This document shows, piece after piece, positions 1,406-5,584 of a DNA stretch of 15,370 nucleotides. Numbering within the stretch: position 1 is the first letter of the stretch; each line of letters starts with the position of its first letter. Under the pieces are notes generated by a model that saw nothing but the letters and a program-made list of their open reading frames with translations, did not search any database and had not been told where the DNA came from. Source of the stretch: Zetaproteobacteria bacterium (GTDB taxonomy: Bacteria > Pseudomonadota > Zetaproteobacteria > Mariprofundales > Mariprofundaceae); contig JAJRTX010000201.1 of NCBI GenBank assembly GCA_021545665.1, positions 1 to 15,370 of the forward strand, written 5' to 3'. Made by a program: the position numbers and the translations under genes.

Positions 1406-1873
1406 ATGAGGGCATTAGTACTACGCTGGCTGGCAGCCGGTTTCGGCAGTGGCTGGCTGCCCAAAGCGCCAGGCACATGGGGCAGCCTGGTTTCTTTATT
1501 GCCAGCCTGGTTGCTGCTGGAGTTATATGGTGTGAGTGGATTGTTTGTCGCCAGCGCTCTGATTTTGATTGCGGGTTGTCTGGTCTGTTTTCTGGTTCTT
1601 CCAACCATGCCAGAAAAAGACCCCGGCTGGATTGTGATTGATGAATGGGCGGGTCAGTGGTTATGTATGGCTATGGTGGCCGGAGCAATAGGCATCGGAT
1701 GGCTTGCCCTTGTCATTTCTTTTGCTGCATTCCGATTATTGGATATTTTCAAACCCTGCCCGATCTCCTATTTTGAGCATTGGGGGCCGCCCTGGTGGTC
1801 AATCATGGCCGATGATGTGGCTGCTGCTGTTGTCGGCGGAGGGTTTGTGATTGTGATAGCCTCGTTTATATGA
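1406..1873 (+). CDS. pgpA: Phosphatidylglycerophosphatase A
   Basis: PgpA is an inner-membrane enzyme that removes the phosphate from phosphatidylglycerol phosphate to give phosphatidylglycerol. The 155-residue product has the family landmarks: GFGSGWLPKAPGTWGSL near the N-terminus, IVIDEWAGQW in the middle (the acidic DE pair is a proposed metal ligand), and FRLLDIFKPCPI followed by IMADDVAA near the C-terminus. Several hydrophobic stretches fit membrane segments. I choose ATG 1406, with GAAGAG 12 bp upstream. A TTG at 1394 would add four residues, but the GAAGAG would then abut the start codon. The stop overlaps the next gene's start (ATGA), so the two are probably translated together. Length is close to that of other bacterial PgpA proteins. 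Confidence 0.93.
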   Translation: MRALVLRWLAAGFGSGWLPKAPGTWGSLVSLLPAWLLLELYGVSGLFVASALILIAGCLVCFLVLPTMPEKDPGWIVIDEWAGQWLCMAMVAGAIGIGWLALVISFAAFRLLDIFKPCPISYFEHWGPPWWSIMADDVAAAVVGGGFVIVIASFI

Positions 1874-2865
1874 ATAAACAGGCTACATGGATTATCTCCG
1901 AAGCAGGATTACAAAGCCTTGCTGCTGCGGGCATCAGCACAGGCTGGTTAAAAGCCTGGTTACTCTCTGCCGGAGCCACGGATGTAGAGATACATTTGCT
2001 GGAATCTGCAACATGGCAGCATAGTGAAGCCGCTTGGCAGATATTCTTTGCCGATGAATCCGAGCTTGAAGGTGTCGCTGCATTTCATGGTTTGAGTTTC
2101 CAGACCAATGAACAGGGGCTGAATGCATTACCCGGAGCTGATGGTTTTCGCTTATCCAATCCGGATCGGACATGCTGGTTTTATCAGCGACATGCAACAA
2201 ACTCGGAAGTGTTACTACTGCCGCTGGGTGATATTGCTTATCAACGCGAGCTATATCTTTCTCAGTTGAATCAGAATCAGGCATTGCTGCCGCTCTATGT
2301 ATCCATACAAGAATCGAGAGAACTGCCATTGGAGCCGGGACTGTCGGCCAGTCTGACAAAACCTGATGCTACATTCTTGAATTCTGAAGGAAGATTGATT
2401 GAAGAACAGGTGATAGCTGCGTTATATGCGAACAGGAAACGCATTCGCACCGTGGAATCCTGTACGGGTGGCAGCATCGCAGTACGTTTATGCCGATTGC
2501 CCGGTGCATCGGAAGTCGTTGACCGTGCATGGGTGACCTACAGCAATGATGCCAAGCATGAAGAAGTCGGCGTTTCCAATAAATTACTGAACGAATACGG
2601 AGCGGTGAGCGAACAGGTGGTTACTGCCATGGCCGAAGGTGGGGCTGATTCAAACCATATCTGTGTAGCCGTCAGTGGCATCGCCGGACCCGATGGAGGC
2701 ACACCAGAAAAACCGCTTGGTACAGTGCGGATTGCCGTGGCCCAATCAGGCCAGAAAACTCAAATGAGATGTTATGAACTGCCGGGCGGACGCAGTGAAA
2801 TCCAAGCCCGCACAGTATTGATGGCCTTGGTCATGGTATTGGAAACTCTGAAAGCAACCACTTAG
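1870..2865 (+). CDS. CinA-family protein with PncC-type amidase domain and divergent N-terminal half
   Basis: The C-terminal half (about residues 178-330) is a nicotinamide-nucleotide amidohydrolase (PncC/CinA C-terminal) domain, known to deamidate NMN to nicotinic acid mononucleotide in pyridine-nucleotide salvage. It shows ESCTGG (196-201, with the proposed catalytic Ser), VTYSNDAK (222-229, with the partner Lys), GAVSEQVV (244-251) and SGIAGPDGG (269-277). The N-terminal 175 residues sit where standard CinA has a MoaB/MogA-like domain, yet the usual G-[DT]-ELL motif is missing. Faint similarity remains (WIIS at the start, WLKAWLLSAGA, and PGADGFRL near 88-95 followed by LLLPLG). I infer a decayed or strongly remodelled version of that domain, shorter than normal (331 aa against roughly 410-420 in full-length CinA). 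The ATGA overlap with pgpA implies translational coupling. A full cinA function should not be assumed. Confidence 0.88.
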   Translation: MNKQATWIISEAGLQSLAAAGISTGWLKAWLLSAGATDVEIHLLESATWQHSEAAWQIFFADESELEGVAAFHGLSFQTNEQGLNALPGADGFRLSNPDRTCWFYQRHATNSEVLLLPLGDIAYQRELYLSQLNQNQALLPLYVSIQESRELPLEPGLSASLTKPDATFLNSEGRLIEEQVIAALYANRKRIRTVESCTGGSIAVRLCRLPGASEVVDRAWVTYSNDAKHEEVGVSNKLLNEYGAVSEQVVTAMAEGGADSNHICVAVSGIAGPDGGTPEKPLGTVRIAVAQSGQKTQMRCYELPGGRSEIQARTVLMALVMVLETLKATT

Positions 2866-2910
2866 CTTAACCCCTGATTTATCTACAAAGCAAGGTCAGG
2901 CACCGACTGT

Positions 2911-3065
2911 GATGTTTATTTAACTAGCGGATCAGTGTTTTATTGTCTACACTAGCTTTAAATGAGGAAGGGGTGCCAGGAAGGCGCAATCACAGAGACA
3001 TAGAAGTTACCAACCCATATCATTCCTGAGGGGGGGAATCGTTTTGCCGAGTTTTTCAAGCATAT
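2911..3065. repeat. Diverged direct repeat, copy A
   Basis: This segment runs from GATGTTTATTTAACTAGCGG to TTTTTCAAGCATAT and matches 3176-3330 in the same orientation, about 85% identical by eye with a few one- or two-base indels. Blocks such as AAATGAGGAAGG, GACATAGAAGT, ACCAACCCATA and CATTCCTGAGGG are shared. A TAG interrupts the frame that is longest in copy B, so the repeat does not look coding. Confidence 0.8.
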
Positions 3066-3118
3066 TACTTTGTCAGTTCGATTCGCACAACGAAAGATTG
3101 CAACCGCTATTTAACGCT

Positions 3119-3139
3119 AAAAGGGCTCTGACCCCTTTT
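3119..3139. repeat. AAAAGGG / CCCTTTT hairpin
   Basis: AAAAGGG (3119-3125) pairs with CCCTTTT (3133-3139) across a 7-nt loop containing CTCTGAC. The CTCTGACCCCTTTT wording resembles repeats that often accompany REP-associated (Y1) transposase elements; that link is recalled, not shown. It could also act as a weak terminator. A related CTGACCCCTTTTGCTG block recurs near 3434. Confidence 0.45.
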
Positions 3140-3175
3140 GCTGCAAGGGTCTGATTCCTCAAAGCTTGCAGTCGG

Positions 3176-3330
3176 GATGCTTATTTAACTGGCGGATCGG
3201 TGTTTTCTCATCTACACTGGCTTCAAATGAGGAAGGAGCGCCATGGACGGCGCATTCACAGGGACATAGAAGTCACCAACCCATAATCATTCCTGAGGGA
3301 GAATCGGTTTGCCGGGTTTTTCAACCATAT
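3176..3330. repeat. Diverged direct repeat, copy B
   Basis: This is the second copy of the 155-bp repeat, offset from copy A by 265 bp and separated from it by 110 bp. It contains ATGAGGAAGGAGCGCCATGG in place of the copy A sequence and lacks two G residues of the G-run in copy A. The level of divergence suggests an old duplication, or two independent insertions of the same repeat family. Confidence 0.8.
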
Positions 3331-3433
3331 CGCACCAGCGGCTTTTTAGTGAGTCTGTAAAGCGTTTCGATTGCAGCACCCTGTGCGGCGATAGGGACAG
3401 CGATCCCGATGAAAAAATCAGACCTTCTTCGAC

Positions 3434-3456
3434 CTGACCCCTTTTGCTGTAAAAGG
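3434..3456. repeat. Second CTGACCCCTTTTGCTG block with hairpin
   Basis: The block CTGACCCCTTTTGCTG repeats the one near 3129-3144. Here CCTTTT (3440-3445) can pair with AAAAGG (3451-3456) over a 5-nt loop. Each 155-bp repeat copy is followed at some distance by this block (about 65 bp after copy A, 105 bp after copy B), so the original repeat unit may have been longer than the well-matched 155 bp. Confidence 0.45.
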
Positions 3457-3510
3457 TTATGATTATGGCTCCCATACGGAGATGATAATAATGATTCAAG
3501 GTGGTAAGAA

Positions 3511-3783
3511 ATGAAAATATGGAAACTTTCTGTCCTCAATGAAGAATCCCAGGACTGGAATGCCAGTACTTACAAGGGAGAGGTGTTTGTCAGGGCTGAA
3601 AGCGAGCAAGATGCTCGAATGCAAGCAACTTTAGTTTTTGCGATTGCCACCAAACGAAAGTTATTCGAAACAACAGCGGTTAATCCATGGAGTCAGGGTA
3701 GCCTTGTCTCCTGTGGGCCTGTTGAAGATGAAAGGTATGAGGTCAAAGGTAATGCAGGAGTGTTATCGCCAGAATCAAGTTAA
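3511..3783 (+). CDS. Conserved small protein of unknown function (cassette-type)
   Basis: A 90-residue soluble protein without signal peptide or membrane segment. It is preceded by a good ribosome binding site (AAGGTGG, about 5 bp before the ATG). Visible features are MKIWKLSVLNEESQDW, a STYKGEVFVRAESEQDAR stretch, FAIATKRK near residue 43-50, and NPWSQGSLVSC near 58-68. From memory this pattern (an alpha/beta start, a VRAESEQ.AR helix, then NPW....VSC) belongs to a family of small uncharacterised proteins found scattered in Proteobacteria, some in mobile gene pools. No enzymatic motif is evident. The stop codon lies 3 bp before an attC-like site, the layout of an integron gene cassette. Function unknown. 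Confidence 0.7.
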   Translation: MKIWKLSVLNEESQDWNASTYKGEVFVRAESEQDARMQATLVFAIATKRKLFETTAVNPWSQGSLVSCGPVEDERYEVKGNAGVLSPESS

Positions 3784-3786
3784 ATC

Positions 3787-3869
3787 GCCTAAGCAAATGC
3801 ACTCGGTCGCCAAAAAGCGGCCTCGTTCCTCGCGCTGTTTTTTTCTACCGGTGATTTACGACGTTGGCT
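3787..3869 (+). other. attC-like recombination site (integron cassette)
   Basis: Seen directly: AAAT-G-CAC-T-CGGT (3795-3807) pairs perfectly with ACCGGTGATTT (3847-3857) if G3799 and T3803 are left unpaired. Outside this stem, GCCTAAG (3787-3793) and GTTGGCT (3863-3869) can partly pair (GCC with GGC, AA with TT). Known attC sites have exactly this plan: RYYYAAC and GTTRRRY outer cores, an inner stem, and extrahelical bases on one arm only. Both cores deviate by one base from the consensus. The loop (3808-3846) holds AAAAAGCG and a T-run, so a terminator-like structure is an alternative. The position, 3 bp after one small gene and 16 bp before the next, also fits a cassette junction. No integrase gene is in the window. 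Confidence 0.6.
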
Positions 3870-3885
3870 ATAAAAGGATAGGGAT

Positions 3886-4461
3886 ATGGGATTTTTATCT
3901 AGGCTGTTTGGAAGTCGCGATCATGAGGCCTCATCAGTTCCCCTAGGTGGGGCTGGGCTGTTATCAGATGCCATAAACAATAATGTAGCCCCAAACCAAG
4001 AGGGCGCGGCAACCTTGTCAAACGCGATTCAATCGTTGGGGATAGAAGCACCGGAGGTGGATAATTCTAACGGCCTTTGTATCCAATCTCTTAGAGTAAT
4101 AGCGACGGACCTCATTAGAAGACTTGGTTACACCCCAGAATCCGTCAGCGACAATCTTCTAGTAGTTATATGTATGTTTACATCTGCTGGAAGCGTTGTA
4201 TTGGCCAATGAAATTGGCGGTGATCTAGCTTCTATACGCACGCTAGTCCCGTTAAATATATTTCATAAGCACAGCGATGGAGAGTCACTAGCAGATATTG
4301 CACAGCAATCAGAATCTCTCCTAGATTCCGATGAAAACGCAAAGATCAAAACAGCACTTATTGGAAACTTTGCCAAATGGTTAAAAGATCCAACAGAAGA
4401 ACAATTCACTCGTATTTGTGAGTTAGTCAAGTTATTGGAATCGAACCTAAGTGATCATTAG
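3886..4461 (+). CDS. Hypothetical protein, possible second cassette gene
   Basis: A 191-residue protein I do not recognise. The start is supported by AAGGATAGGG just upstream. The N-terminus MGFLSRLFG is basic and amphipathic. A mildly hydrophobic stretch (LLVVICMFTSAGSVVLA, near residue 91-107) is too polar around its edges to be a confident membrane segment. The C-terminal part is acidic and looks helical. Base composition seems AT-richer than the housekeeping neighbours by eye, consistent with foreign origin. It begins 16 bp after the attC-like site, as cassette genes do. Its own downstream attC is not recognisable: AGCCAAT at the stop would be a near-match to a left core, but no matching GTTRRRY box follows. 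Function unknown. Confidence 0.6.
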   Translation: MGFLSRLFGSRDHEASSVPLGGAGLLSDAINNNVAPNQEGAATLSNAIQSLGIEAPEVDNSNGLCIQSLRVIATDLIRRLGYTPESVSDNLLVVICMFTSAGSVVLANEIGGDLASIRTLVPLNIFHKHSDGESLADIAQQSESLLDSDENAKIKTALIGNFAKWLKDPTEEQFTRICELVKLLESNLSDH

Positions 4462-4501
4462 CCAATCGGCTAGCTTGGGGATTCTAACCCCCCCCACCCC
4501 A

Positions 4502-4521
4502 CCGTTTGCGGGTCCGCACGG
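4502..4521. repeat. GC-rich hairpin after the 191-aa gene
   Basis: TGCGG (4507-4511) and CCGCA (4514-4518) form a tight stem, extended by CCG and CGG after a 2-nt bulge. A run of eight C residues lies just upstream (4488-4495). No T-run follows on the plus strand. It may end transcription of the 191-aa gene, or be part of a degenerate recombination site. Confidence 0.35.
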
Positions 4522-4530
4522 GGCGGTTCT

Positions 4531-4562
4531 AATTCCGAATTCCAGAGTTACGGGGACATAAC
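4531..4562. repeat. AATTCC...GGGGACATAAC mobile-repeat-like sequence
   Basis: AATTCCGAATTCC followed by AGAGTTACGGGGACATAAC resembles, from memory, the 'aattcc...ggggaca' sequences that flank REP-associated Y1 transposase genes in many Proteobacteria. No transposase lies beside it, so at most it is a remnant. It marks the right end of the accessory island, 42 bp before the end of the HAD gene. Confidence 0.35.
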
Positions 4563-4604
4563 AAGTAGGGCCTTGAATCGCGGATTTGGCCTATCAAGAC
4601 ATAA

Positions 4605-5399
4605 TCAGGACGCTGGTTGAAGCAAATTCAGCGCATCGGGAAGATCGGCGATGGAGGGTAGGACAAGGTCGGCTTTGATGCCGGTTTGCTGGACGAATTC
4701 GGCGCGGTATTTGCCTGTTTGCACCAGTGCGGTTTTCAGGCTGGCCCGTTGTGCGCCGCCGATATCGGATTCTATGTCGTCGCCTATCATCAGGGTTTGA
4801 TTCGGTGAAACGCCCAAAGAGGAACAGATGCAGTGGAAAAAGTCTGTTGAGGGTTTGCCGAGTATGGTCGCCTGTTTTCCTGTGGCATATTCAATGGCCG
4901 CGACGAAGGGGCCGAGATCCAGATGCAGGCCGTCCGGTTTTTGCCAGAAGCGATTTTTGTGCAGGGCCAGCAGCTTTGATCCGGCCAGAACCTGAGTGAA
5001 AATATCGCGCAGCACTTCCGGTGAATAACCCTCGCCGCCCAGATCGCCCATAACGATGAAATCAGGCTGATGATCTGAATGTTGAATGCCTTTGAAATCG
5101 ACCTGCAATGAATCACGGATATATAGCCTGGCTGAAGAGCTGCCGATTCGTTGTACAGCCACTGCTGCGGGTGTGTACACATCTGATTCATGGATTTCGA
5201 TGCCAAAGTCTTTGAGCTTTTTTACTATGGCCTGCCTTGGCTGGGTTGTTGTGTTGGTGACAGCGGCAATTTGCAATCCTGCATTACGCAGTTGCTGAAC
5301 AGCTGAAGCGGCTCCGTTTATGATATGGTTGCCAATATAAAGTACGCCATCCAGATCAAGTAGAATGGCTTTTATTGCTGAGGGCTTCTTTGTTTCCAT
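4605..5399 (-). CDS. HAD-superfamily IIA phosphatase (HDHD2/LHPP-like)
   Basis: A cytosolic haloacid-dehalogenase-type phosphatase of subclass IIA, closest in pattern to the HDHD2/TIGR01458 group; the physiological substrate is not known. Counting from the chosen start, the four HAD motifs are visible: DLDGVL with nucleophile Asp15 and acid/base Asp17, VTNTTT (about 47-52), GKPS with Lys182, and MIGDDIESD (204-212) binding Mg. A C2-type cap with HKNRFWQKPDGL lies between motifs II and III. I start at Met 5399 (264 aa). An upstream in-frame ATG at 5417 lacks a ribosome binding site and lies upstream of a strong -10 element, so it would not be transcribed from that promoter. The gene points opposite to its neighbours and is a single transcription unit. 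Confidence 0.85.
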   Translation of the reverse strand: METKKPSAIKAILLDLDGVLYIGNHIINGAASAVQQLRNAGLQIAAVTNTTTQPRQAIVKKLKDFGIEIHESDVYTPAAVAVQRIGSSSARLYIRDSLQVDFKGIQHSDHQPDFIVMGDLGGEGYSPEVLRDIFTQVLAGSKLLALHKNRFWQKPDGLHLDLGPFVAAIEYATGKQATILGKPSTDFFHCICSSLGVSPNQTLMIGDDIESDIGGAQRASLKTALVQTGKYRAEFVQQTGIKADLVLPSIADLPDALNLLQPAS

Positions 5400-5405
5400 G
5401 CTTTT

Positions 5406-5414
5406 ATTATAGCA
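5406..5414 (-). promoter_or_regulatory. Extended -10 promoter of the HAD gene
   Basis: On the minus strand TGC-TATAAT is a perfect extended -10 element (TGnTATAAT). Its last T is six bases before the A of the ATG at 5399, so transcription would begin on or within a base of the start codon, giving a leaderless mRNA. No convincing -35 box is seen, which is common for extended -10 promoters. Confidence 0.55.
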
Positions 5415-5584
5415 CATCGAAATAATAGGGCAGTGCTGATCAATTCATAGATCGCTGCTTTGTATCTGAAAATGTGCATCTCTGTGTTGTAAATATTGCC
5501 AATAGCTCTGCTATTAGCTGCAATTTACGCCTTGATCTGAACCTTTTCAAATAGCAAATCAGTTGACCCAGAGTTAATCAGCAC

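Follow-up and report, generated by a model that had tools for sequence, protein, structure and literature searches.

A worn attC site in a probable two-cassette remnant between cinA and a HAD hydrolase gene of a Zetaproteobacterium

Introduction

Between cinA and a convergent gene for a HAD-family hydrolase in a Zetaproteobacterial contig lie two small genes, and between these is a hairpin that resembles the attC site of an integron. Two questions are raised by this locus: (i) whether the hairpin is truly an attC; and (ii) if so, how cassettes came to lie beside cinA and whether they can still leave. The DNA considered here is a stretch of 15,370 nucleotides (the window). A preliminary description, made from the letters of the window, had proposed an orphan attC-like site consisting of a perfect stem with two extruded bases and flanking core-like boxes, without an integrase in view, and had taken it for a stranded integron remnant or an off-target cassette insertion.

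For integron integrases, both the extrahelical bases and the way in which the bottom strand folds are important (PMC3053210). The features of the locus are collected in Table 1.

Results

The segment between cinA and the HAD gene is an insert

The CinA protein of the window has 57% identity to that of two Mariprofundus MAGs and up to 60% in a search of the class; thiL- and pgpA-like genes are also near the site. By its CinA the window comes from a Zetaproteobacterium resembling Mariprofundus. In eight relatives, −10 to 141 bp separate the stop of cinA from that of the HAD gene (for example 6 bp in G050, 33 bp in G043 and an overlap of 6 in G002), compared with 1739 bp here. These counts leave aside 23 of the 33 loci, which have no HAD gene in the available stretch, and two loci (L077 and L079) that repeat L001 and L002. 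The short distance in the eight relatives means that everything between the two genes in the window has been added, and the comparison of this interval that had been proposed earlier for sister strains, made here with relatives, yielded junctions free of the insert.

The left part of the insert consists of two diverged copies of a repeat of about 265 bp, in which no coding capacity was recognised. A segment of 22-30 nt around 3117-3146 recurs at 12 places in genomes of the class, and at six of these loci there are, by eye, transposase ORFs beside the motif, which we take to be RAYT-like. The right flank of the insert (4536-4604) was tried as a third copy of the repeat and as further intron sequence. 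Neither identity held up: 228 and 56 of 300 shuffles were as good against the two repeat copies, 234 against the reverse complement, and 267 and 156 of 300 against intron interiors. A search for the insert in phages found none, and in plasmids it matched only by its intron end, discussed below.

Table 1. Features of the window around the insert, with positions counted from its first letter
Feature	Position	Strand	Evidence
cinA, left neighbour of insert	1870..2865	+	PF02464, E 1.8e-45
Two diverged copies of repeat, ~265 bp apart, each then CTGACCCCTTTTGCTG(C/T)AA; left part of insert	2911..3452	+	85-100% identity over segments
Cassette 1 gene, 90 aa, function unknown	3511..3783	+	ORF; three relatives; no family over cut-off
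attC of cassette 1, degraded	3783..3869	+	R1 59.6 bits, E 2.8e-16; DNA matches of 75-85% identity in 6 genomes
R″ remains GCCTAA, ~4 nt too near L″	3787..3792	+	Deletion inferred from alignment
L″ arm with extrahelical G3799, T3803; conserved A replaced by T3807	3793..3807	+	Folds, alignment to relatives
L′ arm	3847..3859	+	Folds, R1
R′ GTTGGCT	3863..3869	+	R1; identical R′ in L039
Cassette 2 gene, 191 aa, ORFan	3886..4461	+	ORF; protein search
R″ remains TAGCCA of cassette 2 attC	4459..4464	+	Reverse complement of own left end (T)TGGCTA; same relation in L107, L109
Probable group II intron 3′ end (domains V-VI), 5′-truncated, in that R″	4465..4529	−	Identity to intron ends, shuffles
HAD-family hydrolase gene, right neighbour	4605..5417	−	PF13242, PF13344

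The hairpin is homologous to attC sites

When either strand is folded as DNA, the arm AAATGCACTCGGT (3795-3807) pairs with ACCGGTGATTT (3847-3857), and G3799 and T3803 are extruded from the 5′ arm. In the fold of the bottom strand, which would be the recombinogenic strand, the C and A opposite these positions are the extrahelical bases, both on one arm. The stem described earlier is thus present with its two extruded bases, but its last pair, T3807-A3847, proves to be a mark of decay rather than of perfection (see below). The spacing is as claimed, with the stop of the 90-aa gene (3781-3783) before the hairpin and the next ATG, at 3886, lying 16 nt past R′ in the fashion of a cassette. Folding energy alone does not lift the hairpin above chance (z-scores against shuffled sequences of 0.12 for the bottom strand, 0.44 for the top strand and −0.12 for the trimmed bottom strand); it is homology that does so.

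Homology was assessed with R1, a covariance model built from 11 other Zetaproteobacterial sites with the window excluded, and distinct from the models of IntegronFinder and HattCI. The training sites were gathered by likeness to the attC family of the window, and R1 is consequently narrow. It has a single match in the window, which is the hairpin, and with filters off over 2866-4620 its second-best match reaches only E 1.6. The covariance-model check suggested for this site accordingly gave a strong match, albeit with a model from sites of the class. Rfam at E ≤ 1 has one match, an unrelated weak one at 5076-5136.

A DNA search with 2870-3885 across 78 genomes of the class produced matches in 14, and the hairpin itself was matched in six of the 78 (G008, G064, G011, G038, G051 and G004). 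The six sites have the form TAAC-AAG-GCAAATGCACTCGG .. CCGGTGATTTGC-GAC-GTTA or close variants of it, with canonical attC cores; the R′ end is altered in G004. The G004 site (L047, G004:C47, 1489-1594) is of interest in its own right, as its R′ end is replaced beside an CAGGGGTCAGGGC motif and a RAYT-like ORF, and it looks as if a RAYT-linked element had removed R′. In the window R′ is intact. It follows the core consensus GTTRRRY, with C in place of R as its sixth letter, and its GTT is present in 23 of the 25 distinct relatives.

The attC family is placed by R1 on contigs that carry intI. Among 14 intI-bearing stretches, sites were found in three at E ≤ 1e-6 (L059, L061 and L062); a further site, in L075, reaches E 5e-4. 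In G058:C34, intI (48780-49724) is accompanied by R1 sites at 47675, 39699 and 38781; in G025:C15, intI (3183-4127) by a site at 1045; and in G013:C88, intI (2569-3513) by two weaker sites.

Across the class, 32 of the 78 genomes have R1 matches at E ≤ 1e-6, and intI exceeds its curated cut-off in 26 of the 78. Twelve of the R1-positive genomes have such an intI, G002 has a partial one, and 19 have none at E ≤ 1e-22, figures from which some integrases may be missing because many of the genomes are drafts. Judged by these matches, orphan attC sites are common in Zetaproteobacteria. One example is L065 (G051:C4, 9004-11440), where three R1 attC sites (E 1.3e-24, 1.1e-10 and 3.8e-5) form a CALIN in a contig of 1.47 Mb; its genome yielded nothing for intI at E ≤ 1e-22. 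In the ORF list of the window no integrase was recognised by eye, and the earlier remark on its absence holds for these 15.4 kb.

On the strength of this homology, we regard 3783-3869 as a real but worn integron attC, the fossil of an element whose type is already established.

The first attC has decayed in R″

The site has retained L″, both extrahelical bases, L′ and R′. Its R″ core reads GCC, compared with AAC (20), AAT (4) and AGC (1) in the 25 distinct relatives, which correspond to 26 rows other than the window, two loci of one G058 site being identical. In place of an R″ of the consensus RYYYAAC, complementary to R′, there is a displaced GCCTAA that lacks the final C, and because the remainder of the site is homologous, we read this as decay within the attC family. 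An ungapped alignment of R″ would cost five changes in seven letters beside a nearly unchanged arm; a deletion of 4 nt is therefore preferred, and GCCTAA directly before L″ suggests an R″ of RYYYAA type that was displaced by such a deletion. The core-like boxes described earlier have consequently fared unequally, R′ being sound but the putative R″ lying about 4 nt nearer the stem than in the relatives.

There is a second sign of wear at alignment column 24, where each of the 25 distinct relatives has an A that is unpaired in the model. In the window it is T3807, now paired with A3847, so that a pair occupies a position left unpaired by all relatives and the third extrahelical position kept by them is lost. 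Overall, 16 of 20 model pairs form, the second lowest number among 26 distinct sites.

Could a site in this state still be part of a functional, mobile single cassette? This would imply that IntI of this lineage needs no more than R′ and the L stem and tolerates damage in R″, and the intact R′, the 11 of 12 L-arm pairs that are kept and the preserved extrahelical G and T are in its favour. The aberrant R″ core, the replaced A and the low count of pairs argue against it, however, and damage to R″ is expected to abolish recombination here. In addition, a left end for cassette 1 was not found when TTAGGC was sought upstream; GTTATGA at 3456 is a possible but unsupported boundary. We consider a mobile cassette unlikely.

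The two genes themselves reveal little. Three proteins are related to that of 90 aa, at 91, 80 and 60% identity, and the 191-aa protein retrieved only itself among 586 candidates, with the same single protein at a looser limit. Neither has a family match over a cut-off, and structure models of the two (mean pLDDT 43.1 and 55.5) are too poor for a fold search. Neither gene was found in a recognised cassette array or in the 78 class genomes, the latter search having no positive control and so showing little, and the 90-aa gene is absent from the viral contigs searched. No relative carrying both genes around an unconserved spacer has thus come to light among these genomes. The ORFan content fits that of cassette genes.

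A probable second attC, interrupted by a group II intron remnant

The attC of the hairpin probably has a companion, as the 191-aa gene appears to be followed by another attC that has been destroyed. Group IIC-attC introns are described in part of PMC7923331 as inserting on the bottom strand of attC, in R″ at TTGT/T and opposite to the cassette genes. After such an insertion the top strand would keep five letters of R″, followed by the complement of the intron. In the window a probable intron remnant of 65 nt on the minus strand adjoins TAGCCA at the stop of the 191-aa gene, in R″ and opposite to the cassette gene, and the same arrangement is seen in L107 and L109. The junctions in the three records (G066, plasmid OZ026885 and the window) read GCCTA, GCCCA or AGCCA, in each case followed by ATCGG.

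The remnant has 82% identity to G066:C139:2438-2509, its only match among the 78 genomes, and 78.7% to an intron end in OZ026885; in comparisons with either, none of 300 shuffles was as good. Rfam gives the remnant 11.9 bits (E 4.7) against a gathering score of 40, with unrelated families higher, since it is too short; the related stretch of G066 scores 46.1 bits for Intron_gpII, over the gathering score. The intron of OZ026885 has D1-D4 domains and a group II RT (TIGR04416, 363.6 bits). In the G066 stretch a D1-D4 domain was not found at E ≤ 0.5, and this intron therefore seems truncated as well. It lies behind a 140-aa gene, and its contig also carries an intI of 442.5 bits.

L109 (G066:C139, 838-2510) is a compact integron that consists of intI, a single 140-aa cassette whose function is unknown and, within the attC of this cassette, a group II intron that appears to be truncated. 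L107 (OZ026885.1, a plasmid of Candidatus Methylocalor cossyra, 2449-5005) contains an acetyltransferase gene that resembles an unannotated cassette with the left end TTGGGCCGA, and its attC is interrupted by a group II intron, some 1.93 kb long, whose RT is annotated as 'YkfC'. Once the intron is removed from the sequence, the OZ026885 site forms an attC-like hairpin of −18.1 kcal/mol. R1 finds nothing significant in the L107 region, as expected for an attC split by an intron, and lends it no independent support either.

The three loci have a further property in common, one that is expected of any cassette, namely a left end reverse-complementary to the R″ of that cassette: over 8 nt in OZ026885 (TTGGGCCGA and TCGGCCCA), 5 nt in G066 (TTAGGC and GCCTA) and 6 nt in cassette 2 of the window (TTGGCTA and TAGCCA). 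Together with the intron junction, this match makes a cassette the best reading of the 191-aa gene. It would begin at T3864, the expected crossover between G3863 and T3864 being its left end, and its attC would be gone except for its first letters. The orphan single site of the preliminary description is thus a stray attC indeed, but probably one of two damaged attC, each with a cassette of its own.

Other explanations of the hairpin

An intrinsic terminator would explain the hairpin without recourse to integrons. A GC-rich inner hairpin, AAAAAGCGGC..GCGCTGTTTTTTT at 3812-3844, is followed by a run of seven Ts, and the RNA fold includes this inner stem. Against this, the hairpin is not among the 19 terminator-like sites of a scan, its folding energy as RNA is unexceptional (z 0.17), and the homology spans both R/L arms and R′, which would be superfluous for a terminator. 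The R1 match and the intI-linked relatives rule out a terminator as the sole explanation, which we hold to be very improbable, although the hairpin may act as a terminator in addition to being an attC.

Equally, the hairpin might be imagined as a REP/RAYT-type element belonging to the transposon-like left repeats, as a GGGTCTGACCCC-like motif that recurs beside RAYT-like ORFs is nearby, and the attC relatives L039 and L047 also have such an ORF close to them. The repeats, however, lie at least 330 bp to the left, and the hairpin is homologous to attC rather than to them; the DNA homology to attC and the R1 match refute this reading, which is scarcely credible. Chance pairing, which the fold z-scores near 0 would allow, is refuted by the R1 E-value of 2.8e-16 and has a negligible probability.

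Discussion

Our conclusion is that the hairpin very probably belongs to the remnant of a CALIN-type array of two cassettes, stranded between cinA and the HAD gene. The R1 match, the homologous attC on intI contigs and the eight junctions without insert all bear out the stray cassettes proposed in the preliminary description.

A likely course of events can be outlined. An integron integrase acting in trans, from an integron of this or an earlier host, would have joined the folded bottom strands of attC to a chromosomal site other than attI, whether in a single step or in two. At a later time the second attC would have been split by an attC-targeting group II intron, which was then truncated itself, and an apparent deletion of 4 nt would have displaced the R″ core of the first. 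Lesions in both R″ should block formation of the two-box hairpin that the integrase needs, and the cassettes are consequently probably stranded: immobilised at both attC, they probably persist as ordinary genes or as debris. An alternative for the first step is that the cassettes entered on a transposon, together with the left repeats.

The locus suggests that stray cassettes without an integrase reach housekeeping loci in Zetaproteobacteria. Integrons of Zetaproteobacteria and Mariprofundus seem to be little described in the literature library searched, where one paper names Mariprofundus a single time, as a protein match. The rule drawn from three cases, an intron scar in R″ and a left end complementary to R″, could serve as a practical finder of cassettes whose attC has been destroyed. 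A broader idea, which we offer tentatively and think rather less likely to be right than wrong, is that in this lineage attC-targeting group II introns kill attC and so fix cassettes in the chromosome, that the short 3′ scar left after each cassette gene and the complementary left end betray cassettes invisible to attC models, and that the block between cinA and the HAD gene is a pair domesticated in this way.

Finally, we compare the locus with known systems. With the attC of sedentary chromosomal integrons of Zetaproteobacteria (e.g., G058:C34, L059), the window site shares its sequence family, length, extrahelical bases and R′ core; it differs in its damaged R″ core, in the pairing of the third extrahelical position and in having no recognised intI nearby. 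Sites of the attG type are targets of off-target cassette insertion, according to PMC12444791, and the window likewise has cassettes at a chromosomal locus other than attI; the target G/TT was not located in the window, owing to rearrangement at either end of the insert. With group IIC-attC introns, as a part of PMC7923331 describes them, the window shares a 3′ end in R″ of attC, an orientation counter to that of the cassette gene, and the TTGT/T point on the bottom strand, whereas only 65 nt are left and the RT is gone. A 5′-truncated intron of this group in a cassette array is already on record (PMC7923331, section 6). The closest parallel is the CALIN, thought in passages of PMC9024848 and PMC12444791 to be a degraded integron. 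The window resembles it in having cassette genes followed by attC and no recognised intI; it departs from it in that one attC is still recognisable, whereas the default minimum of IntegronFinder 2 is two. A second is suggested by the R″ stub beside the intron and by the match of left end and R″. Under the definition given in PMC9024848, the element of the window is best read as a CALIN-type remnant, a known kind of element.
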